Shown here piece by piece: positions 1,618-12,876 of a stretch of 64,000 bases of DNA. Source of the DNA: an uncultured Bacteroidales bacterium. Lineage in GTDB: Bacteria > Bacteroidota > Bacteroidia > Bacteroidales > UBA932. The stretch is taken from positions 62,001 to 126,000 of the forward strand of contig CAMZGD010000002.1 in the NCBI GenBank assembly GCA_947306365.1, in the 5' to 3' direction. The stretch's first letter is position 1, and each line of letters begins with the position of its first letter. The notes beneath the pieces were generated by a model. The model was not told the DNA's origin and searched no databases. It saw only the letters and a list, made by a program, of their open reading frames with translations. The position numbers were made by a program, and so were the translations under genes.

Positions 1618-2619
1618 TTATCCGCGCTTCCGCAGGTGGCGCAGCCGCTGCTTCAGCTCTTCCAGGTTGGGGAAGGTAAGGTGACGGCGCGTCTTCTCAG
1701 GATGCATCTCGTCGAACTTGATGAGGATGCCCGCCTCGATCACGTCGCCGAACTCGTCATTGATGCCGGCGCCGAACGACCGCATCGTCGGCGACAGGTT
1801 CATATAGGTATTGACCAGCGGCGGGATGTTGACGCCCATCTGCTGGATCTCGCGCTTGAGGATTTTGTAGTCTTCCCGGAAATCGTTGCCCGTGAAAACC
1901 TTGCCGAGTTCGCGCGACAGTTTGATCTTGACCGGTTTCTTGGGAATCACCATCCGGTCGATCCGGCCGCGCAGGTCGCTCTCCCACCTGCCGAAGTGCT
2001 TACGGAGGAAGAAGAGAAGCATCTGGAGCCCTTTTTCCGGGAAGGAGGGATATATGGTGGCCTTGCCGAAGAAGTACTCCATCCTTCCCTTGTAGAGCAG
2101 GATCAGCCCGCCCAGGCCGTCGAAAAGGTTGTCGAGCGCATAGAGGCTCTTCATTCCCTGTTCGGAGCTCTGGTATTCGGGACGGATGAACGACCGGCTC
2201 AGTTCGATGGTCTTCAGGAATGCGCCGCGCAGGTAGCGGCGGGTGAACCGGAACAGGTGCGAGGACGGCATGATGGGCTGGCCGTACCGGTCGTACATCA
2301 CGTTGTTGCACAACACGTAGCGGTAGCCGCCGATGATGCATTCGGCTTCCGGGTCCCAGAGCACCAGCTGCTTGTACTGGAACGCGGCGTCCAGGTCGAA
2401 GCCGTCGAGGTCGAGGGCCTTGCCGGTACCGCCGCCGCCGGCCCGGAAGGCGATTTCCCGGAGGCGTCCGATTTCGCGCAAAACGTTGGGCGCGCACTGG
2501 TTGTCCACGATGAACAGCTTGTTGCCGGCGTGGTTGGTGTCGCGCAGGAAATGTTGTTCCGTCAGTTCGGCCTTGAGCAGCTCCTTGTCAACCGGAGCGA
2601 TGATATCTTCCATTTTCAT
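1618..2619 (-). CDS. glsB: Glycine-lipid N-acyltransferase GlsB-like (GNAT, ornithine-lipid type)
   Basis: This 333-residue protein belongs to the acetyltransferase family that includes ornithine-lipid synthase OlsB and GlsB of Bacteroides thetaiotaomicron. That enzyme transfers a hydroxy-acyl chain from acyl-ACP to the amine of glycine. Visible features are the family segments LREIAFRAGGGGTGK and IIGGYRY (the acyl donor fold) and a positively charged C-terminus. It follows glsA by 4 nt, so the two are translationally coupled, as in Bacteroides where the N- and O-acyltransferases are adjacent. A second Met two codons downstream (2613) is an alternative start. The specific substrate (glycine rather than ornithine) is inferred from the phylum. 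Confidence 0.82.
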   Translation of the reverse strand: MKMEDIIAPVDKELLKAELTEQHFLRDTNHAGNKLFIVDNQCAPNVLREIGRLREIAFRAGGGGTGKALDLDGFDLDAAFQYKQLVLWDPEAECIIGGYRYVLCNNVMYDRYGQPIMPSSHLFRFTRRYLRGAFLKTIELSRSFIRPEYQSSEQGMKSLYALDNLFDGLGGLILLYKGRMEYFFGKATIYPSFPEKGLQMLLFFLRKHFGRWESDLRGRIDRMVIPKKPVKIKLSRELGKVFTGNDFREDYKILKREIQQMGVNIPPLVNTYMNLSPTMRSFGAGINDEFGDVIEAGILIKFDEMHPEKTRRHLTFPNLEELKQRLRHLRKRG

Positions 2620-2623
2620 CGAA

Positions 2624-3442
2624 TCAGTCCTCTTTCTTTAATCCATATACTTTTTCGCGCACCCAGGCGGCCCATTCGGCGTCCCGCTTCTCCGGAGTGA
2701 ACGTCTGCCAAGGGATGGGTTTCCCGAACACCAGCCGGTACGACTTGTGCTGGCTCCTGTAGAGTTCGTCGGGAAGCGTGAGCATGGCAATGTTGAGCTT
2801 CAGCTTCAGGAGGTTGCGCAATCTGTCGAGCCGGTAGAACCGCTTGGAGTTCTGTCCGCTGAACCACACGGGGACCACGTCCCGGTGCGACATCCGGCTC
2901 TTGGTGATGAAGGTCTTCTTCCAGGGGAGGTCCTGCACGACGCCGTCGATCTTGCGCGAGCAGAGACCGGCCGGGAAGATGATGACCTGCCGGTCGGAGT
3001 TGAAGGCGTCGTTGATCAGGCCCACCAGGTCGGCGCTCTGGCCGCCCATCTTGTTGACGGGGATGGTGTATTCGGCGATCGGCTTGATGGCCATCAGGAA
3101 GTCGTTGGCGGGAATCACGATGTTGCCGTCGTACTTGCGGCCCACGCTGGCGATGACGCTCAGGGCGTCGATGCCACCGAGCGGATGGTTGCCGGCGAAG
3201 GTGAAACGGCCTTCCGCCGGGATATCGTCGAGGCCTTCCACCGTGACGTGGGCGTCATAGTAGACCAGCGACTGTTCGGCGAACTCGACGCCGAGATATC
3301 CTTTGCTGAGGAAACCGTTGAGGTGGTCCTGATGGATGAATTTCTTGAGCCAGTTCAGGATGAACCGGGGTACTTTGTTTTTGCCGAAACGGCTGGTTAC
3401 GATTTGGTCAAGGTCCAGGGTTACGGTTTCGTTGACGGGCAT
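2624..3442 (-). CDS. glsA: Glycine-lipid O-acyltransferase GlsA-like (PlsC-type 1-acylglycerol-phosphate acyltransferase family)
   Basis: The 272-residue product is a PlsC/LPLAT-family acyltransferase. The sequence FAGNHPLGGIDALSVI contains the catalytic histidine and aspartate in a slightly stretched form of the usual HX4D motif (H-PLGGI-D), and IIFPAGLCSRK corresponds to the FPEGxRS block that binds the acceptor. In Bacteroides thetaiotaomicron, GlsA adds the second, ester-linked fatty acid to N-acyl-glycine. Directly upstream of glsB and 38 nt downstream of the DUF3108 gene, it is probably the middle gene of a three-gene unit. Confidence 0.82.
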   Translation of the reverse strand: MPVNETVTLDLDQIVTSRFGKNKVPRFILNWLKKFIHQDHLNGFLSKGYLGVEFAEQSLVYYDAHVTVEGLDDIPAEGRFTFAGNHPLGGIDALSVIASVGRKYDGNIVIPANDFLMAIKPIAEYTIPVNKMGGQSADLVGLINDAFNSDRQVIIFPAGLCSRKIDGVVQDLPWKKTFITKSRMSHRDVVPVWFSGQNSKRFYRLDRLRNLLKLKLNIAMLTLPDELYRSQHKSYRLVFGKPIPWQTFTPEKRDAEWAAWVREKVYGLKKED

Positions 3443-5048: not shown

Positions 5049-5564
5049 ATGAAAAAGATCTTTCTGTTGGCAGCGCTGCTTTGCTGCTCCCTCACTGTTT
5101 TCGCGCAGCAGTATGACTGCTCGTTCACGCAGGCGAAGACGCTCCGGGCGTCCGGAAAGGTGATCCGGTCCGAAGGCGTGATCTCCTTCAAGAGTCCCGA
5201 CCAGCTTACGATGACCTACACCGATCCCGCCGGCGACTATCTTGTCATTTCAGGTCCGATGCTGCGGTCGAACAGCCAGGGCCAGCAGCTGTCGGTCGAC
5301 ACGGAGAAGAACGCCCGCTTCAGGCTGCTGCGCAACACGCTGCTCAACTGCATCACGGGAGAATACGAGCAGGCCGCAAAGGACAACGACGCCGAACTGT
5401 CCGTCTCGGACAAGAACGGCATCAGGACGGTCTCGATGAAAGCGCGCAAGGCGGCGGCCCGCGGCTATTCCAGGATCCTGCTGGAATACGTAAAGGGACT
5501 CCCCGTGCGGATGGTGCTCGAGGAGTTCGGCGGCATCTCTACGGAATACCTGTTCAAATATTGA
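5049..5564 (+). CDS. LolA-like outer-membrane lipoprotein carrier protein
   Basis: This 171-residue protein has a signal peptide (MKKIFLLAALLCCSLTVFA, cleavage before QQYDC). The mature domain resembles the unclosed beta-barrel of LolA/LolB proteins: FTQAKTLRASGKVIRSEGVISFKSP, with the pattern of a ferrying cavity (FKSPDQLTMTY). LolA-like proteins shuttle lipidated molecules across the periplasm. Its gene end overlaps that of the convergent acyl carrier protein by 11 nt. LolA-like genes near an RND/MMPL exporter, ACP and thioesterase also occur in aryl-polyene clusters, but no ketosynthase is present here. Confidence 0.78.
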   Translation: MKKIFLLAALLCCSLTVFAQQYDCSFTQAKTLRASGKVIRSEGVISFKSPDQLTMTYTDPAGDYLVISGPMLRSNSQGQQLSVDTEKNARFRLLRNTLLNCITGEYEQAAKDNDAELSVSDKNGIRTVSMKARKAAARGYSRILLEYVKGLPVRMVLEEFGGISTEYLFKY

Positions 5565-5793
5565 GCGACTGCTCCTGCCGTTCCAGGTAGGCGACCACGT
5601 CGCCCACCGTATCGAACGTGGCCAGGGCCTGGTCGGGGATGACGAGGCCGTACTGGTCTTCGATCTTCATCAGGAGCTGGAGGATGTCGATGGAGTCGGC
5701 GCCCAGGTCTTTCTTGATGCGTGATTCCAGGGTGATGACGGAGGGGTCTTTCCGGAGCTGCTTGGCCAGGATGGCCTGTACTTTGTCAAACAT
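5554..5793 (-). CDS. Acyl carrier protein
   Basis: The 79-residue acidic product has the phosphopantetheine attachment site in LGADSIDILQLLMKIED, with the modified serine in D-S-I (most fatty-acid ACPs have D-S-L). Its start overlaps the end of plsX by 8 nt, so the two are translationally coupled, and it is the last gene of the operon that begins at alr or at the exporter gene. A dedicated ACP for this operon is more likely than the housekeeping AcpP, which usually sits next to fabF. Confidence 0.9.
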   Translation of the reverse strand: MFDKVQAILAKQLRKDPSVITLESRIKKDLGADSIDILQLLMKIEDQYGLVIPDQALATFDTVGDVVAYLERQEQSLNI

Positions 5794-6811
5794 AGTCTTC
5801 GTAGTGTTCGTATTTTGCGATTTCCGCCTCGATCTTGGCCGACAGGCGGCTGGTTTCCATCCGGTAGGCCTGCCCGATGCACTTCTCCACCGCTACGGCC
5901 TTGCTGCTTCCGTGGCCCTTGACCACGACCTTCGACGTGCCGAGCAGCACGCTGCCCCCGTAATTCTGGTAATTCATGAACTCCTTCTCTTCCCGGAACA
6001 TCCGTTTCATAAGCAGCGCGCCGAGCTTGTAGCGGGTGCGTGAATAGATGTCCTTCCGGAGCTTCTTCAGCAGTTCGATGGCCGTTCCTTCCGTGGTCTT
6101 GACGAGGACGTTGCCGGAGAAGCCGTCGGCCACCACCAGGTCGTAGGCACCCGAGAGCAGGTCGCGGCTCTCCATATTGCCCAGGAAGTTGACCGAAGGC
6201 GTTTCCTGCAGCAGCCGGTAGGCCTCGCGTCGGAGGTCGTCGCCTTTTTCCGCCTCCTTTCCTACGTTGAGCAGGGCGGTCCGGGGCCGTTCAACGCCGT
6301 AGACGTTTTCCAGATAGAGGCTGGCCATGATGGCGAACTGCCGCAGGTGTGCCGGCGTGACTTCCACGTTGGCGCCGCTGTCGCAGATGCCGACGATGCC
6401 GCCGTCCATCGTAGGGAGCAGCGGGCAGAAGGCCGGGCGGATGACCCCCGGGATGCGGCCGAGCCGCACGAGGGCGCCGGTCACGAGGGCGCCGGTCGAA
6501 CCGGTCGAGACCAGGGCGGCGATGTCGTCTTCGTCGCGGAGCAGGATGATGGCCTTCATCATCGAGCTGTTCCGCTTGAGCCGGATCACGTCGGTCGGTT
6601 TTTCTTCGCAGCCGATGACTTCCGGTGCGTGGACGATGTCGAGCCGGGCGGCGTCGTATGCCTTCCCGGCGAGTTCGGCCTTGATCCGGGCTTCGTCGCC
6701 CGTGAGGATGAGGTGCAGGTCCGCATTGGCGGCCAGGGCGGCCAGGGCGCCGGCGACCGGAGCCTGCGGCGAATGGTCGCCGCCGAAGCAGTCGACGAGG
6801 ATCTTGATCAT
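5786..6811 (-). CDS. plsX: Phosphate acyltransferase PlsX
   Basis: PlsX interconverts acyl-ACP and acyl-phosphate on the inner face of the membrane. The 341-residue product starts MIKILVDCFGGDHSPQAP, matching the PlsX signature DAMGGDxAP, and contains VSTGSTGALVTGA and GVERPRTALLNVGKE blocks typical of the family. The ATG at 6811 overlaps the upstream stop as ATGA. In most bacteria, including many Bacteroidota, plsX lies beside rpmF and fabH; here it sits instead with fatty-acid kinase genes, so it may be a second, specialised copy. Confidence 0.93.
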   Translation of the reverse strand: MIKILVDCFGGDHSPQAPVAGALAALAANADLHLILTGDEARIKAELAGKAYDAARLDIVHAPEVIGCEEKPTDVIRLKRNSSMMKAIILLRDEDDIAALVSTGSTGALVTGALVRLGRIPGVIRPAFCPLLPTMDGGIVGICDSGANVEVTPAHLRQFAIMASLYLENVYGVERPRTALLNVGKEAEKGDDLRREAYRLLQETPSVNFLGNMESRDLLSGAYDLVVADGFSGNVLVKTTEGTAIELLKKLRKDIYSRTRYKLGALLMKRMFREEKEFMNYQNYGGSVLLGTSKVVVKGHGSSKAVAVEKCIGQAYRMETSRLSAKIEAEIAKYEHYEDYV

Positions 6812-7929
6812 GCCAGTTTCTTTACATAGGAACGGCGGCGCTTGGCCTGTACGGCGTTGAAGCGTCGCCATTGGTTCTGGATGGCGTAGTTGTCCTCGAG
6901 GTTGAGGTTGGTTTCGGCATATTCGACGTCGGTCTCGCGGAGCATATGGAGGATGGCCGAAGAGAAAGCCACGGAAACGCCGCGGTTCAGCCAGGCAGGT
7001 TCCACGCCGATCAGGCAGAGGTCGATGATCCGGGGATGGCGGATGCACCGCAGCAGCCGCAGGAGCACCCGGGGCGTGAAGTGTCCGCGCGTCCCGGCAA
7101 GGGCCGGGGCGAGCGCGGGGATGGCGAAGCCGAAGCAGACCATCCGGTCGTTCTCGTCGAGGATCACCGCCGTGTATTTCGGGTTGATGACGAGCCGGAA
7201 ATTGTCGATCATCAGCTTCTTCATCCGGTCGGTGAACGGGACGGTTCCGTAGAGACCCTCATACGACTTGTCGAGGAGCACGAAAAGGTCGTCTGCGTAG
7301 CGGCGGATGAAGTCGCGCGCATTCTTGGACGGGCCGAAATGCAGCTTGTAGCGCCGGAAGATGAAGTCCGTGAGCTTGTCGAGGTTTTCTTCGTCGTGCT
7401 CGGGCGCGTAGAGGCGCGATTCGGTCCAGTCCACTTCCTTCACGAAGCCGAGCCGTTCGATGTGGTGCTGGTAATAGGGGGCGTTGTATTGCTCCTCGAA
7501 GGTCTGGGGCTGGTCGAAGCCCTCGATCAGCAGGCCTTCGCGTTCCAGGTCGGAAAAGCTCAGCGGTCCGCAGAGCGTATCCATTCCCTTGTCGCGGGCC
7601 CAGGCCTCGACGGCGGCGAACAGGGCTTCCGAGACGGCCGGGTCGTCGACGGCGTCGAAGCGGTTGAAGCGGGCGCGCCGCTCACCGTTCTTCTCGTTGG
7701 CGGCCCGCTGGATGATGCCCTGGATGCGGCCGGCGATGCGGCCGTCGCGGTAGGCGTTGAAGCAGATCCAGTCACAGCAGTCGCTGTAGACGTAATCGGG
7801 TCGGAACATCTTCTTCTCGTCGGCGTAAAGCGGCGGGACGAAATACGGATTTCCGGCATACAGGTCGAGCGGGAAATCCAGGAATTCCCGCTGCTGCCGG
7901 CGCGTCTTGACTTCCTGTATCGTGACCAT
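6808..7929 (-). CDS. GNAT-like acyltransferase family protein of unknown substrate
   Basis: The 373-residue product starts MVTIQEVKTRRQQREFLDFP. The segment LYAGNPYFVPPLYADEKKMF is characteristic of a GNAT-like family common in Clostridia and usually annotated as N-acetyltransferase. The C-terminal half, from about residue 290 (IDLCLIGVEPAWLNRGVS), resembles the GNAT cofactor-binding region. The gene is coupled at both ends: 2 nt after the DegV gene and a 4-nt ATGA overlap with plsX. In this setting the donor could be acyl-ACP rather than acetyl-CoA, but nothing in the sequence proves it. Confidence 0.72.
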   Translation of the reverse strand: MVTIQEVKTRRQQREFLDFPLDLYAGNPYFVPPLYADEKKMFRPDYVYSDCCDWICFNAYRDGRIAGRIQGIIQRAANEKNGERRARFNRFDAVDDPAVSEALFAAVEAWARDKGMDTLCGPLSFSDLEREGLLIEGFDQPQTFEEQYNAPYYQHHIERLGFVKEVDWTESRLYAPEHDEENLDKLTDFIFRRYKLHFGPSKNARDFIRRYADDLFVLLDKSYEGLYGTVPFTDRMKKLMIDNFRLVINPKYTAVILDENDRMVCFGFAIPALAPALAGTRGHFTPRVLLRLLRCIRHPRIIDLCLIGVEPAWLNRGVSVAFSSAILHMLRETDVEYAETNLNLEDNYAIQNQWRRFNAVQAKRRRSYVKKLA

Positions 7930-7931
7930 CG

Positions 7932-8801
7932 CTACCGGTGGATTGCGTGGAAGCAGACGCCGACACCGTTGGGGCCGGCGTGGCTGCCGGCGGTCGGGTT
8001 GCAGACCACATATTCGATGTCGAGGTCCTGTCCGAACCGCTCCTTGAGCGAGCGGCCGAGTTCCTGCGCCAGTTCGGGGGCGTCGGTGTGGCCCACGTAG
8101 AAGCGGTGCCGCTTGATGTCGTCGCCCAGGTCGGCCACGCGGCCGATGAGGTGTTCCATCGCCTTGACGCGGCCCTTCTCCTTGCCGCAGGAGACCATCT
8201 TGCCCTCGGCGGACATATAGATGATCGGCCGGATGCCGATGAGCGTGCCCATCGTGGCGGCCAGGCCGCTGACGCGGCCGCTGCGGCGGAAGAACTTCAG
8301 GTCGTCGGCGAAGAAGTACATCGCATAGCGGTCCACTTCGGTCCGTGACCATTCCAGCACTTCGTCGAGCGTCTTGCCGGCCTTGAACAGGTCGCCGACG
8401 GCACGGACCACCGCATAGCTGACGGTGGTGATGCCCTTGGTGTCGATCTCTTCGAACCGGCGCTGCGGATACTTCGCGCGGAGTTCGGCCACGGCCTGGT
8501 CCATCGCGTCGAAGGTGATGGTCATCGCCCGGGAGAAGTGGACGTAGAGAATGTCGTTGCCGGCGGCGAATTCGGGTTCGAAATACGCGATGTACCGCTC
8601 TTTGGAGATGGCGCTGGTGGTAGGGAGCACGCCGCTGCGCAGCAGGTCATAGAAGGAGCGGGCGTCGAATTCCCGGAAGTCCACGTAGGGGTAGATGGTC
8701 TTGGCGTCCACGCTGTAGGGCATGCTGATCAGCTTGTAGCCGTATTCCGCCGCGACGGCGGGCGTGATGTCGGTGTCAGTGTCTGTATAAAATGTCAACA
8801 T
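7932..8801 (-). CDS. fakB: DegV family fatty-acid binding protein (FakB-like)
   Basis: FakB proteins hold a fatty acid while FakA phosphorylates it. The 289-residue product starts LTFYTDTDTDITPAVAAEYG and carries the ligand-pocket motif PTTSAISKERY (counterpart of TSQPS in Staphylococcus FakB), the GRVSGL segment, and a C-terminal SHAGPNGVGV block corresponding to the carboxylate-binding HxGPGALG region. Its start lies 7 nt inside the end of the fakA-like gene, so production of kinase and binding protein is coupled. FakB identity rests on this linkage; DegV proteins alone are hard to assign. Confidence 0.85.
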   Translation of the reverse strand: MLTFYTDTDTDITPAVAAEYGYKLISMPYSVDAKTIYPYVDFREFDARSFYDLLRSGVLPTTSAISKERYIAYFEPEFAAGNDILYVHFSRAMTITFDAMDQAVAELRAKYPQRRFEEIDTKGITTVSYAVVRAVGDLFKAGKTLDEVLEWSRTEVDRYAMYFFADDLKFFRRSGRVSGLAATMGTLIGIRPIIYMSAEGKMVSCGKEKGRVKAMEHLIGRVADLGDDIKRHRFYVGHTDAPELAQELGRSLKERFGQDLDIEYVVCNPTAGSHAGPNGVGVCFHAIHR

Positions 8802-10390
8802 AGGAGTAGGATATAGTCATAGACGGGCTGGCCGCCGTCGATCCGGGTGAATTCGGTGCGCGGCCAGGCCTGGGTGAGGGCGGTTTCGGCGGCGGCCGCT
8901 TCTTCGGGCGGCGTATCGGCCCCGGTGAAAAGGACGGCGATGTCGTGGCTGCCCGCATCCAGTTTCCGGGCCAGTTCAAGCAGGGTCGTCAGCCGGTCGG
9001 GAGAACCGCAGAGGATGTCTTTCCCGCTGATGCCCAGGAAATCGCCGTTGTGTCCTGCGGCGCTGTCGCGGATGGCGCGCGAGACCAGGCCCGTTACGGT
9101 GCCTTCCAGTGCTTCTTCCAGTTCCGGTACGATCTGGTCGAGCGTCTCGGAGACGTCGAGGCTGGCGAGGGCGTAGTAGCCCTCGCCGGGGCTCCGGGTC
9201 GGAATCACTTCCACGCGGGCCTTGTCGTACATCGATGCGGCCTGGCGGGCCGTGAGCAGGATGTTGCCGTTATTCGGGAATACCAGATAGCTCTCGGCGC
9301 CGATGCGGTCGAATGCCTCGAGGAAGGCCTGGACGGGCGGGTTCATCGTCTGGCCGCCTTCGATCACGGCGTCGGCGCCCAGTTCGCGGAAGCACTGCTG
9401 CAGTTTCGCGCCGGCGGCGACGGCCACCACGCCGAGCGCTTTGCCCTTGCGGCGGAACCGTTCGTCCATATGGTTTTCGTGGTGCTGAAGCGTCATGTTC
9501 TCGATCTTCAGGGTCAGGAACTCCCCGTACTGCTGGCAGTGGTTGAGGATGTCGCCGGGTGTGCGCGTATGGACGTGTACCTTGATGACCGTGCCGTCGC
9601 GGAAGAATACCAGCGAGTCGCCGTGGCCGGCGAGCCAGTCGGCGAGCACGCGCTCGTCGAAGGTATCCAGGTCCACCTTGCTGCGCTGCAGCCGGAGCAG
9701 GAACTCGGTGCAGTAGCCGAATTCCAGCGTGCTGTCTTCGGTAAAGGCGTCCAGGTCTACGGCCTGTGCGGGCGCCGCGGCGGATTCGGGTCGTTCCGCG
9801 GTTTCCCCGTGAAGTCCGGCGCGCATTCCTTCCGCAATGCAGAGGAGTCCGGCGCCGCCGCTGTCCACCACGCCGGCCTGCCTGAGCACGTCGAGCAGGT
9901 CGGGGGTATGCTGGAGTGAAAGGTCCATCGCCGAGATGAGCAGGTCGAAATACTCGTTGAGGTCCTTGCTGCCGGCCGCTGCCTGCACGCCTTCCCGCAA
10001 TACGGTCAGGATCGTGCCTTCGACCGGTGTGGCGACGGCCTTATAGGCGGCTTCGACGCCGAGGGACATGGCTTTCTCAAAAATCCGGACATCGGCTTCG
10101 CGGACGTCTTTCAGTCCCTGGGCCATTCCGGCGAAGATGCGGGAGAGAATGACGCCCGAATTGCCCCGGGCGCCCGTCAGCATGCCCTGTGAAACGGCAG
10201 CCGCCGTCTTGCCGAGACTGTCCGCAGCTGCGCGGCAGCCCGCCTCCAGGGTCATATACATGTTGTCTCCCGTGTCGCCGTCCGGAATCGGGAACACGTT
10301 CAGGTCGTTGATGGTCTTCCGGCTGGAATTCAGCCGGTCTGCACCGCAGCAGACCATCGAGAGGTATCGTTTTCCGTCAATCTTGTCCAT
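8795..10390 (-). CDS. fakA: Fatty-acid kinase FakA-like (DAK2 domain)
   Basis: The 531-residue length is close to Staphylococcus FakA. The N-terminal DAK2/DhaL-type kinase domain has NVFPIPDGDTGDNM (D37, D39, D42, N43 for Mg-ATP) and GARGNSGVILS. The middle domain has FGYCTEF (C227) and VHVHT (H272, H274), matching the Cys-His-His zinc site described for FakA and absent from dihydroxyacetone kinases. A C-terminal FakB-docking domain follows. It transfers phosphate from ATP to a FakB-bound fatty acid. The start overlaps the exporter stop as TGATG. Fatty-acid kinases are best known from Gram-positive bacteria. Confidence 0.9.
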   Translation of the reverse strand: MDKIDGKRYLSMVCCGADRLNSSRKTINDLNVFPIPDGDTGDNMYMTLEAGCRAAADSLGKTAAAVSQGMLTGARGNSGVILSRIFAGMAQGLKDVREADVRIFEKAMSLGVEAAYKAVATPVEGTILTVLREGVQAAAGSKDLNEYFDLLISAMDLSLQHTPDLLDVLRQAGVVDSGGAGLLCIAEGMRAGLHGETAERPESAAAPAQAVDLDAFTEDSTLEFGYCTEFLLRLQRSKVDLDTFDERVLADWLAGHGDSLVFFRDGTVIKVHVHTRTPGDILNHCQQYGEFLTLKIENMTLQHHENHMDERFRRKGKALGVVAVAAGAKLQQCFRELGADAVIEGGQTMNPPVQAFLEAFDRIGAESYLVFPNNGNILLTARQAASMYDKARVEVIPTRSPGEGYYALASLDVSETLDQIVPELEEALEGTVTGLVSRAIRDSAAGHNGDFLGISGKDILCGSPDRLTTLLELARKLDAGSHDIAVLFTGADTPPEEAAAAETALTQAWPRTEFTRIDGGQPVYDYILLLC

Positions 10391-12876
10391 CAGTTTCCGT
10401 TAAGTTTGAGCTGCCGCCGGAACCATCGGGTTTTCAGCAGCTGCCGGAACACGAAAGGTTCCAGCGAGTAGGTCATCAGGATGGTGGAGAGCATACCGAT
10501 CAGGGTGATCCGGCCGGTGGAACTGATGGCGGGATGGCTGGCAAAGACCAGCGAACCCACCACGATGACCAGGATCAGTGCGGAGAAGAAGATGGCGACT
10601 TTGTGGTATTCAAGCCGCGCGGTCTCGCCCGTGCGCGCTTCCTCCAACAGCCCTTCCATCACGAATATGCTGTAATCCACGCCGATGCCGAATACGAAGG
10701 TCGAGATGACGATGTTGATCATGTTGAATTCCAGGCCGAACAGCGTCATCAGCCCCTGCAGGACATACCAGGAGAGGAACATCGGGAGAAAGGCGATCAG
10801 GGCGACCAGGGGCTTCCGGAAGGCGACCAGCAGGACAACCAGCACGAAGAGCGAGGAAATCCACAGCGTGGTGCGGAAGTCGTCGTGGATGATTTCCACC
10901 AGGTCGCGGCAATAGTAGAACGGCTCGAGCACGAGGGTCTGCGGGCCGTCGATCAGTCCGGCGGTCACGGCATCCGTATCCTTGGGATCGAAAGACACCG
11001 AAGTGAAGACCATCTTCCGGCCGCCCGGCTGCGCTTCGATGAAATTGGAAAGCATCTCCGGCGGAATGACGCCCGCTTCGAACAGGGAACCGGGCTGGTA
11101 TTCGGCCTCCACCAGGGCGAAGAATGGGGCGAAGATGCCGGGATCCAGCTGGTGGCGGCGGGCAGCGGCTTCCAGCGTCCTGCGGGCCGCAGCTGTCCGT
11201 TGCGGCGACCAGAACTGCTTCCAGGCAGCGATGCGCAGCGCCTGGTCGCGGGTGGTCTGGAAGAGGAGCGGGGCAAGCGCGTTGTATCCCTTGACCAATC
11301 CCTGGTCGGACAACGTCTTCAACCGTTCCTGCAACAGTTTGTCGTATTCCAGCGCCTGGTCGAGGTCTTCGTCGTAAGTGGCGAAGTACAGGTCCATGTA
11401 GCCGTCCTGGTTCTTGTCGAAATAGAGTTGCTGGCTTTCCGTCAGTTCGGGGTTGTCGTAGTCGAGGTTGCGGAGGTCGCTGTCGAAACGCACGCGGGGT
11501 GCCAGGACGATGCCGGCCGCGATGACGACCGCCATGGCGCCGAGAATCCATCCGTTCCGGTCCCAGGGGAGCGCGTTGAAACGGTCGATGAACGGGAATC
11601 CGTGTGCTTTCCCGTCCCGCACGTGTTCCTGCTTGAGGAAATGCGGCAGGAATACCAGGACATACAGCGTACTGCCGGCCAGCAGGAAGGCGGCGAACAG
11701 GCCGAAGTCACGCAGCAGGTCGCTCTCCGTGAAGAGCAGCGCCAGGAAGGCGCCGATCGTGGTCAAGCAGCCCAGGAACACCGGTGTCGATTCCTCCTGT
11801 AAGGTCTGTTCGGCGTCGCCGACATAGTAGAAGTGGACCAGTACGTGCAGGCAGTAGCTGAGCGCTACGCCCAGCACGATGGCCCCGACACCCAGGGCCA
11901 TGAGCGACATAGAACCCTTGATCCAGTAGAGGCAGGCCAGCGCGAAGAAAGTTCCGTAGACAACCGGGGCGATCATGTGGAAGATGAAGGTTCCGCGGCG
12001 GAAGCACGCCAGCAGGATGGCCAGGATGACCAGCAGCGAGATGCCGATCGTCATGGCCAGGTCGCGTTTGATCGTACCGGAATTGGATACGGCGCCCAGC
12101 GGTGCTCCGTGGAACAGGATCCGGGCGTCGGGATGGGCGGTTTCGAAGGTCTTGCGCTCCTGGTTCAGGATCCGCGAGAAACGGAGGGAATTGTAGGAGT
12201 CGGTCTGGGAGAAGGCGGGGGTGATGAAGGCGAGGGCGACCGTCTGGTCGGGACAGAAGAAGTGGCCGTCCACCATCGTGAACCCGCCGATGCCGCCTCC
12301 CGTTTCGGGCAGGATGTCGGCCAGGAAGAAATCGCGGAGACCGAACGGATCGGTGCAGACCAGCTGTGTGGCGTCGCCGGTCATGTCGGCTTCGAGCAGT
12401 TCGACGTTCCGGCGCATCCGGGCTTCGACCGCATCCGGTTCAAGTGCGGCGGCGAAAGCGCCGTAGAACGACGTGTCGATGAAGGCGGGGAGGTGTTCGA
12501 ATCCGTAGTCCATCGCGCCGAGGGCCGTCTCCACGTCCAGGGCGCTCAGGATGCCGACGATGTACTGTCCGGCCGTGTCGCGTCCCCGGACCGCGTCGGT
12601 GAATTCGTCGACATAGCGCCCGAGGGTCCCGGCGTCGGCCGGCTCTTCGGGGTTGCGGGACGTGATCTGGATGAAAATCTTGTCTTTCAGTCCGATGTCG
12701 CTGAACGCCAGTTCCGTGTCGAGACTGGAGCGCGGCATCAGCTTGAGGATGTCCTCTTCGTACCGCAGCCGTGTGCCGAAGAAGATGAAAACCAGCAGGC
12801 TGGCCGCCAGCAGGCCATACAGCAGGCCCTTATGCTTCTGGAAATACCGATAGATCGGAACGAAAATCCGGTGCAT
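10390..12876 (-). CDS. RND/MMPL family exporter
   Basis: The 828-residue product has a duplicated RND layout: TM1 at about 17-34, a periplasmic domain to about 270, a membrane block at about 272-412, a second periplasmic domain at about 465-655, and a final membrane block to about 810. The second half keeps the MMPL proton-relay motif GIGVDY (730-735). The matching position of the first half reads GVALSY (336-341), with serine for the aspartate. Relatives move lipids or lipid-linked products across the inner membrane. The gene starts 9 nt after alr and overlaps fakA by 1 nt, linking it to the acyl-phosphate genes. Confidence 0.87.
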   Translation of the reverse strand: MHRIFVPIYRYFQKHKGLLYGLLAASLLVFIFFGTRLRYEEDILKLMPRSSLDTELAFSDIGLKDKIFIQITSRNPEEPADAGTLGRYVDEFTDAVRGRDTAGQYIVGILSALDVETALGAMDYGFEHLPAFIDTSFYGAFAAALEPDAVEARMRRNVELLEADMTGDATQLVCTDPFGLRDFFLADILPETGGGIGGFTMVDGHFFCPDQTVALAFITPAFSQTDSYNSLRFSRILNQERKTFETAHPDARILFHGAPLGAVSNSGTIKRDLAMTIGISLLVILAILLACFRRGTFIFHMIAPVVYGTFFALACLYWIKGSMSLMALGVGAIVLGVALSYCLHVLVHFYYVGDAEQTLQEESTPVFLGCLTTIGAFLALLFTESDLLRDFGLFAAFLLAGSTLYVLVFLPHFLKQEHVRDGKAHGFPFIDRFNALPWDRNGWILGAMAVVIAAGIVLAPRVRFDSDLRNLDYDNPELTESQQLYFDKNQDGYMDLYFATYDEDLDQALEYDKLLQERLKTLSDQGLVKGYNALAPLLFQTTRDQALRIAAWKQFWSPQRTAAARRTLEAAARRHQLDPGIFAPFFALVEAEYQPGSLFEAGVIPPEMLSNFIEAQPGGRKMVFTSVSFDPKDTDAVTAGLIDGPQTLVLEPFYYCRDLVEIIHDDFRTTLWISSLFVLVVLLVAFRKPLVALIAFLPMFLSWYVLQGLMTLFGLEFNMINIVISTFVFGIGVDYSIFVMEGLLEEARTGETARLEYHKVAIFFSALILVIVVGSLVFASHPAISSTGRITLIGMLSTILMTYSLEPFVFRQLLKTRWFRRQLKLNGN

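Follow-up and report, generated by a model that had tools for sequence, protein, structure and literature searches.

A fatty acid kinase, PlsX, and acyl carrier protein operon with a ceramide-synthase-like tandem GNAT protein in an uncultured Bacteroidales bacterium

The locus described here raises the question of where a Bacteroidales bacterium would send fatty acids that it activates with a kinase. It lies in a 64,000-nucleotide window, by which we mean the whole stretch of DNA that was analyzed, from an uncultured Bacteroidales bacterium (GenBank assembly GCA_947306365.1, contig CAMZGD010000002.1, positions 62,001 to 126,000 of the forward strand). Six genes on the minus strand encode an exporter, the fatty acid kinase FakA, a DegV protein of the FakB type, a tandem-GNAT protein, PlsX, and an acyl carrier protein (ACP). 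Every gene runs from ATG to stop, and there are no internal stops. The operon is real, intact, and conserved across phyla, more than chance would give. We consider it somewhat probable that a dedicated ACP receives acyl groups through FakAB and PlsX and passes them to a ceramide-synthase-like N-acyltransferase with a sphingoid-type acceptor. The first part, that FakAB and PlsX load the ACP for the GNAT protein, is likely. The sphingoid-type acceptor is the weakest step and could fall either way.

The operon and its five-gene core

The features are as follows, with positions in the window.

10390..12876, minus strand: MMPL/RND-superfamily exporter, 828 aa; PF03176 at 58 bits against a cut-off of 20.5; a lineage-specific partner
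8795..10390, minus strand: fakA, fatty acid kinase catalytic subunit, 531 aa, full three-domain form (Dak2, FakA-like_M, FakA-like_C; TIGR03599)
7932..8801, minus strand: fakB-type DegV protein, 289 aa, presumed fatty-acid binding subunit; PF02645 and TIGR00762 over their cut-offs
6808..7929, minus strand: tandem-GNAT protein of the YghO/Aca (ceramide-synthase-like) kind, 373 aa, presumed N-acyltransferase; AlphaFold2 fold and YghO homology
5786..6811, minus strand: plsX, acyl-ACP:phosphate acyltransferase, 341 aa, of a module-specific clade; TIGR00182 at 334 bits against a cut-off of 243
5554..5793, minus strand: dedicated ACP, 79 aa, with presumed phosphopantetheine serine S34 in GADS; PF00550 and NCBIfam ACP models over cut-off
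5049..5564, plus strand: LolA-like protein, convergent to the ACP gene and overlapping its end by 11 nucleotides; PF03548 over cut-off

The coordinates give junctions of 1, 7, 4, and 8 overlapping nucleotides and a single 2-nucleotide gap. They bear out the gene order, shared strand, and spacing of the six genes in a first-pass annotation of this DNA. The title of that annotation called the operon fused to the exporter. The exporter is a separate neighboring gene, and there is no protein fusion. A promoter scan found none, which says little, as 1.9 were expected in shuffles.

Nine congener loci were mapped. All nine keep the order exporter, FakA, DegV, GNAT, and PlsX, and these proteins are 55 to 93% identical across them. 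The ACP is present in eight and was not seen in L051. A GNAT orthologue (at least 67% identity) is encoded by 19 of 36 congeners. Named genomes were also scanned with the GNAT alignment. The best 80 of 421 relatives, with 59 to 86% identity, were retained and are no census. Forty carry Bacteroidales or Bacteroidia titles, and 40 carry other titles. The latter are mostly Clostridia, Oscillospiraceae, or Ruminococcus, with one Treponema and one Syntrophobacterales. By title, many of the 80 are from ruminant, deer, or horse gut. Counts took in only loci with enough contig. Bacteroidales-titled loci contain DegV (38 of 38), FakA (37 of 37), PlsX (39 of 40), and ACP (38 of 40). Other-titled loci contain DegV (29 of 36), FakA (23 of 30), PlsX (31 of 36), and ACP (25 of 34). 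The core is the five genes FakA, DegV/FakB, GNAT, PlsX, and ACP, common to Bacteroidales, Clostridia, and one Treponema. The first-pass annotation had proposed a co-occurrence search, and this is the set that recurs across phyla.

Of the loci with enough sequence, 33 of 34 Bacteroidales-titled ones carry the exporter upstream of the core, as against 0 of 19 others. This distribution points to an addition specific to a Bacteroidales lineage. No exporter match was found in L121, L155, and L159, the three deepest-branching Bacteroidales rows of the GNAT tree. The exporter had been annotated as a module component; it was rejected as part of the core because it is missing from all 19 non-Bacteroidales loci. 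Its best NCBIfam models are HAE3 and HpnN, far under cut-off. The LolA-like protein is best matched by LolA2_flexi (flexirubin-type) at 59.9 bits, below the cut-off of 125. Its gene is near the ACP end in many close relatives, and in these only it is a possible export partner. The exporter, with the LolA-like protein in close relatives, would have been added in one Bacteroidales lineage, perhaps carrying the product towards the outer membrane.

The G+C content of the operon is within 5 points of its flanks in each of 14 loci (39.6 versus 39.5% in the Treponema). This argues against mis-binned contigs, with exclusion incomplete. Scattering of the genes in all relatives had been named as a result that would count against the module; they are clustered in most, with exceptions in three genomes. 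G016 encodes FakA, DegV, and ACP without GNAT, and its PlsX is on another contig. The PlsX stretch of G010 (12.9 kb) holds no other core gene. In G001 (L077, L074; L098), PlsX and ACP are missing from the operon, and a separate contig carries a divergent plsX.

Trees were built on chosen subsets (PlsX, 59 rows; GNAT, 47; FakA, 36; DegV, 42; serine palmitoyltransferase [SPT], 40) by a quick method with support from the SH-like approximate likelihood ratio test (SH-aLRT) only, and the PlsX, GNAT, and SPT trees gave long-branch warnings. In the GNAT tree, rooted by paralogues, 15 Bacteroidales rows (98) nest within clostridial diversity. In the PlsX tree, the Bacteroidales module copies (18 rows, SH-aLRT 98) sit among clostridial ones. 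Because both proteins nest in this way, the simplest reading is that the module was transferred to Bacteroidales from a clostridial-type donor. Such an acquisition had been suggested at first pass, and both trees support it. Carriage on a mobile element was rejected. Among viral contigs, 30 pattern matches included no confirmed relative of the query. All 44 matches in the plasmid collection are below 60% identity, and the two best are in other contexts. One of these two has a DegV gene beside it on the opposite strand.

Kinase, PlsX, and the dedicated acyl carrier protein

FakA scores 485 bits with TIGR03599 (cut-off, 396), and three Pfam domains pass curated cut-offs. The narrower model NF038248 gives 393 bits, under its cut-off of 975. 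The window FakA aligns along its length to the solved FakA 7w7h. It contains the Asn/Asp/Asp/Thr residues of the Mg site and the Cys-His-His residues (N31, D37, D39, T40, C227, H272, and H274), and the absence of kinase residues that the first-pass annotation had allowed for was not seen on alignment. The last three correspond by motif to Staphylococcus aureus Cys240, His282, and His284. They had been annotated as a zinc site. The residues themselves are confirmed and also align with 7w7h; the excerpt of PMC9136124 calls the S. aureus residues catalytic and does not contain the word zinc. (Papers are cited here by PMC number.) The DegV protein is related in sequence to solved FakB1 chains, and its gene adjoins fakA. 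It scores 83 bits with the narrow FakB1 model, under the cut-off of 350. FakA and FakB are presumed to form a fatty acid kinase pair.

In a sample of 395 Bacteroidota genomes, the window genome alone gave a full-length FakA above cut-off. A different form was seen in this sample. Proteins of about 600 aa (L080:6342-8123 and L084:2201-3967) match FakA residues 1 to about 302 only. Two such proteins were scanned, and each contains Dak2, the FakA middle domain, and DegV in a single chain. This is a natural FakA-FakB fusion without the FakA C-terminal domain. Matches of this type are present in 21 of the 395 genomes.

The window genome, which is 87% complete, has a single TIGR00182 match. The second plsX for which the first-pass annotation had proposed a check was not found there. 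A single plsX could be a housekeeping gene. This was ruled out by four results. First, PlsX is above cut-off in 22 of 36 congeners, and FakA is in 21 of these 22 and in 0 of the 14 PlsX-negative congeners. Second, PlsY was not detected in the window genome, and none of the 36 congeners has a match above cut-off (the one in G035 is below it). Acyl-phosphate would thus have no known PlsY outlet in these genomes. PlsY is present in 14 of 24 genomes from other families of the same order. Third, 10 of 12 Clostridia-titled genomes with a module PlsX encode a second plsX elsewhere, told apart by contig position, and all 12 encode PlsY. In the Treponema and three further Bacteroidales, the module PlsX is the only copy, and PlsY was not found. 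Fourth, module-type copies form one clade in the PlsX tree (38 rows, SH-aLRT 96); outside it fall the second copies of the Clostridia and nine further Bacteroidota PlsX (100). The module PlsX is not a housekeeping enzyme. A described housekeeping locus with the same gene order, which the first-pass annotation had held open, did not turn up.

A side observation concerns genomes without either family. Neither PlsX nor PlsY exceeds its cut-off in the 14 module-less congeners or in several genomes from other families of the order. Phospholipid initiation in these genomes is not explained by the two families.

Three ACPs were matched in the window genome. The one in the module shares 33% identity with either of the others, and these two share 60% with each other. 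The module ACP is 53 to 68% identical to the module ACPs of 12 clostridial and Treponema loci. One of the other ACP genes is beside a fabF-like gene. The second precedes a gene that looks KAS III-like on visual reading of the DNA. As these two accompany fatty acid synthesis genes, the module ACP appears to be an extra copy.

Five clostridial loci contain GNAT and ACP without matches to FakA, DegV, or PlsX. One of them, L115, has only 0.8 kb of contig upstream of GNAT, and FakA and DegV could lie beyond it. In another, L150, GNAT and ACP are separated by a 183-aa reading frame. The four loci placed in the GNAT tree form a single nested clade (SH-aLRT 100). Their position suggests that the loader was lost, which would leave GNAT and ACP as the apparent working pair.

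The tandem GNAT protein and its acceptor

The 373-aa protein has no Pfam or NCBIfam match at an E value of 0.01. Its AlphaFold2 model (mean pLDDT, 87) contains two GNAT domains. The closest solved folds in a structure search are mostly acetyltransferases; glucosamine N-acetyltransferase and mycothiol synthase are among these folds. The 50 structure matches listed contain no FeeM- or LuxI-type entry, and such kinship is still conceivable. The Q/RxxGxG/A sequence is the coenzyme A (CoA) pyrophosphate motif of GNATs and is not universal in the superfamily. Scored as the exact pattern only, it occurs in 1 of 20 GNAT orthologues (residue 172) and in 2 of 23 rows of a wider alignment. The missing canonical pattern fits an ACP donor and is no proof of one.

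A protein search of plasmid records retrieved Escherichia coli YghO. The module GNAT is 27% identical to it over the full length (window residues 1-372; E, 6e-41). In the E. coli plasmid record, yghO is beside genes for SPT, ACP, an epimerase, and a fatty acyl-AMP ligase. It is identified as aca, the acyl-CoA N-acyltransferase of dihydroceramide synthesis (PMC9386255). That source calls Aca acyl-CoA-dependent, so an ACP donor for the module GNAT is our own suggestion. By sequence comparison, the module GNAT is a homologue of the YghO/Aca ceramide-synthesis N-acyltransferases.

In G039, from another Bacteroidales family (L070:744-3343), a 458-aa PlsC-domain protein takes the place of GNAT between DegV and PlsX-ACP. 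The arrangement spans two contigs whose ends share 99 of 101 bases. It suggests that the slot belongs to a user of acyl groups.

In the proposed route, FakB (DegV) would present a free fatty acid, and FakA would phosphorylate it. PlsX would shift the acyl group from acyl-phosphate to the ACP of the module. The tandem GNAT would move it from acyl-ACP to an amine. Judging by the GNAT family, the likeliest acceptor would be a sphingoid base (sphinganine, 3-oxosphinganine, or a close analogue), and the product would be a dihydroceramide-type lipid. The direction of flow, acyl-ACP as the donor, the acceptor, and the exporter substrate are what we infer and are not read from the sequence. Much of this was in the first-pass annotation. 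Its private loading route, own ACP (supported by the 33% identity to the other two), use of the acyl groups by the GNAT-like protein, and acquisition are supported; the exporter as a core part and the fusion are not. The tie to YghO/Aca and ceramide synthesis was missed there and is new here.

The window genome encodes an SPT (G000:C3:109158-110324) that scores 646.6 bits against the NF047600 (SerpalmtaseCFB) cut-off of 640, and a KdsR-like gene follows it. That KdsR-like gene (L204:5099-7144, 681 aa) runs into a glycosyl hydrolase family 43 domain, which is an odd fusion or an assembly effect. L189, beside acpP-fabF, was rejected as SPT, as it is over the cut-off for glycine C-acetyltransferase. 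An SPT-range match is present in 11 of 12 module-bearing Bacteroidales. SPT-like proteins were found in 9 of 12 GNAT-bearing Clostridia and in 0 of 1 Treponema, at 469 to 551 bits, with one fragment at 362. The resulting 9 of 13 compare with 8 of 149 other genomes of a family sample (Fisher P = 8e-8, uncorrected for kinship). The sample was built around one GNAT-bearing clostridial genome, and its eight SPT-bearers are unsorted by module status. Fragments in G467 and G521 were scored as present and G576 (360 bits, a KBL-like score) as absent, and the genomes, for which completeness values were not available, are not independent.

Three clostridial SPT-like proteins were compared with all models. 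NF047600 was best, at 527 to 544 bits, below cut-off. As the clostridial proteins are below the NCBI cut-off for SPT, "SPT-like" is the right term. In the SPT tree, they group with Bacteroidales and E. coli SPT (90), away from the KBL of the same genomes; the E. coli row is a partial sequence on a long branch. A KdsR-like gene is beside the SPT-like gene in 8 of 8 fetched loci of the GNAT-bearing set and in 5 of 7 of the family-sample set. Two congeners without a GNAT-family match were examined (G014 and G017), and neither has an SPT-range match. Runs of SPT, a KdsR-like gene, and a GNAT paralogue, in that order on one strand, are present in the congeners G021 and G030; the best model for the KdsR-like gene in the G021 run is KdsR, below cut-off. 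The neighborhoods of the GNAT paralogues L032, L033, L058, and L061 gave no functional clue. The sphingolipid link is a strong lead and no proof.

Several results weigh against a sphingoid acceptor or against the loading route. The identity between the module GNAT and YghO is just 27%. The window genome has another GNAT, L032, that is 60% identical to the SPT-linked GNAT of G021 and 34% identical to the module GNAT, and G030 has both kinds. As a separate GNAT of the SPT-linked type exists, the module GNAT may have another acceptor. Only 2 of the 11 SPT-range matches in module-bearing Bacteroidales pass the SPT cut-off, and 0 of 9 clostridial SPT-like proteins pass 640. No SPT was detected in three of the 12 GNAT-bearing Clostridia, in the Treponema, or in the module-bearing congener G007. 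SPT and the module are unlinked on the chromosome in the loci seen. Among other-titled loci, L119 is without PlsX and ACP, and L137, L154, and L158 are without FakA and DegV matches. The incompleteness and binning of metagenome-assembled genomes limit every absence. The module GNAT could use scavenged chains for a second kind of ceramide, or it could acylate another amine.

The latter is the alternative that survives best, although we regard it as unlikely. It keeps the same loading, but the GNAT would pass the acyl group to a capnine-type sulfonolipid base, to an amino sugar, or to an amino acid or glycine lipid, and the resulting lipid would be the cargo of the RND exporter. The separate SPT-linked-type GNAT in the window genome and G030 fits it, as do the module-bearing genomes without an SPT-range match and the presence of glucosamine N-acetyltransferase and mycothiol synthase among the closest folds. 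The glycine-lipid genes glsB and glsA are near the module (window 1618-3442), and both pass NCBIfam equivalog cut-offs. Most SPT-range matches in module-bearing Bacteroidales are below cut-off, and these would presumably fit a related cysteate-type enzyme. However, within the best 80 of 421 relatives, neither glsA nor glsB was matched in any of the 40 other-titled loci or in the Bacteroidales loci that are more remote. GNAT-bearing Clostridia are enriched for SPT-like genes, and the relative YghO belongs to dihydroceramide synthesis (PMC9386255).

A second alternative, with a smaller chance, is general salvage. FakAB, PlsX, and ACP would bring scavenged or recycled fatty acids into a common acyl-ACP pool for elongation and membrane lipids, or would signal how much fatty acid is available, as AcpB does, and GNAT would just travel along. 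Enterococcus faecalis provides the precedent. Its FakAB and PlsX make acyl-ACP from free fatty acid (PMC11586512), and its plsX-linked AcpB outperforms the housekeeping ACP as an acceptor of acyl groups from acyl-phosphate and favors acyl-ACP formation (PMC6509188). The window also contains an acyl-ACP thioesterase gene near the module, and G016 lacks GNAT beside FakA, DegV, and ACP and has PlsX on another contig. Salvage does not account for a GNAT that is kept between DegV and PlsX across phyla, and with ACP where the loader is missing. Nor does it account for Clostridia that have their own PlsX and PlsY and retain a second, separate PlsX in the module.

It is improbable that the GNAT is an ordinary acetyl-CoA-dependent acetyltransferase that acts on a small molecule or regulates the enzymes of the operon. 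YghO is mentioned in a lysine acetyltransferase paper (PMC6199490), and the tandem GNATs of closest fold are mostly acetyltransferases. However, no canonical CoA pattern was seen at a homologous place in 20 orthologues, and the protein is paired with a dedicated ACP and linked through YghO/Aca to ceramide.

A reverse route is very improbable. In it, PlsX and FakA would convert acyl-ACP into free fatty acid with a gain of ATP, as a long-chain phosphotransacylase does together with a kinase, and the fatty acid would leave through the RND pump. Acyl-phosphate is rich in energy, and RND pumps that handle fatty acids are known. The exporter is within the operon, and PlsX is reversible (PMC11586512). 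Against this route, the exporter is missing outside Bacteroidales, GNAT would have no role, and AcpB-type ACPs favor the loading direction (PMC6509188).

The reading with a sphingoid-type acceptor extends to a wider picture, which we offer tentatively. Some gut and rumen Clostridia and a Treponema may carry out sphingolipid-type N-acylation on scavenged fatty acids. The ACP charged by FakAB and PlsX would supply GNAT and perhaps SPT, and in the Clostridia a distant SPT-KdsR pair would take part. The module would have moved to Bacteroidales as a unit, gained the RND exporter, and run beside an older SPT-linked ceramide synthase.

Comparison with known systems

No description of this gene set was found in the titles and abstract starts of the best-ranked open-licence PMC papers. 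PMC13400652, PMC11633183, and PMC8791184 yielded nothing decisive. In the excerpt of a 2023 review of gut bacterial membrane lipids (PMC10191378), Bacteroidota are named as sphingolipid producers, the word Firmicutes does not occur, and the Clostridia passage concerns plasmalogens. If the proposed route is true, it joins the Gram-positive fatty acid kinase and bacterial sphingolipid synthesis, fields that have so far been apart. Some Clostridia may then build ceramide-like lipids from free fatty acids, and the kinase-PlsX pair gains a role beyond phospholipid synthesis in genomes without a detected PlsY. The module may link scavenged fat to sphingolipid-like lipids in unrelated gut bacteria. 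It is a defined five-gene set that is testable in vitro.

The GlsB/GlsA glycine-lipid synthesis of Bacteroides shares the chemistry of a GNAT-domain N-acyltransferase, and gls genes are near the module here. GlsB has PF13444 and its own NCBIfam equivalog, whereas the module GNAT matches neither.

The FakAB-PlsX-AcpB system of E. faecalis (PMC6509188 and PMC11586512) shares FakAB, PlsX, and a second, divergent ACP next to plsX, and AcpB accepts the acyl group from acyl-phosphate. Its chains serve phospholipid synthesis, with PlsY, and FabT repression. The module differs in that it includes a GNAT; a search of the window genome turned up no PlsY, and 10 of 12 Clostridia carry the module PlsX in addition to another copy.

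The AasR-AcpR-SPT-Epi-Aca(YghO) set of Rhodobacteria (Caulobacter and E. coli BL21; PMC9386255) has a dedicated ACP, a loader for free fatty acids, and a homologous YghO-type N-acyltransferase. In that set, AasR loads the dedicated ACP, AcpR, for SPT (PMC9386255). The N-acyltransferases of the two systems are 27% identical, and module genomes hold SPT and the reductase elsewhere. The Rhodobacteria load with an AMP-forming acyl-ACP synthetase, whereas the module is proposed to load with FakA, FakB, and PlsX via acyl-phosphate. FakAB and PlsX would play for the module ACP the part that the acyl-ACP synthetase AasR plays for AcpR.

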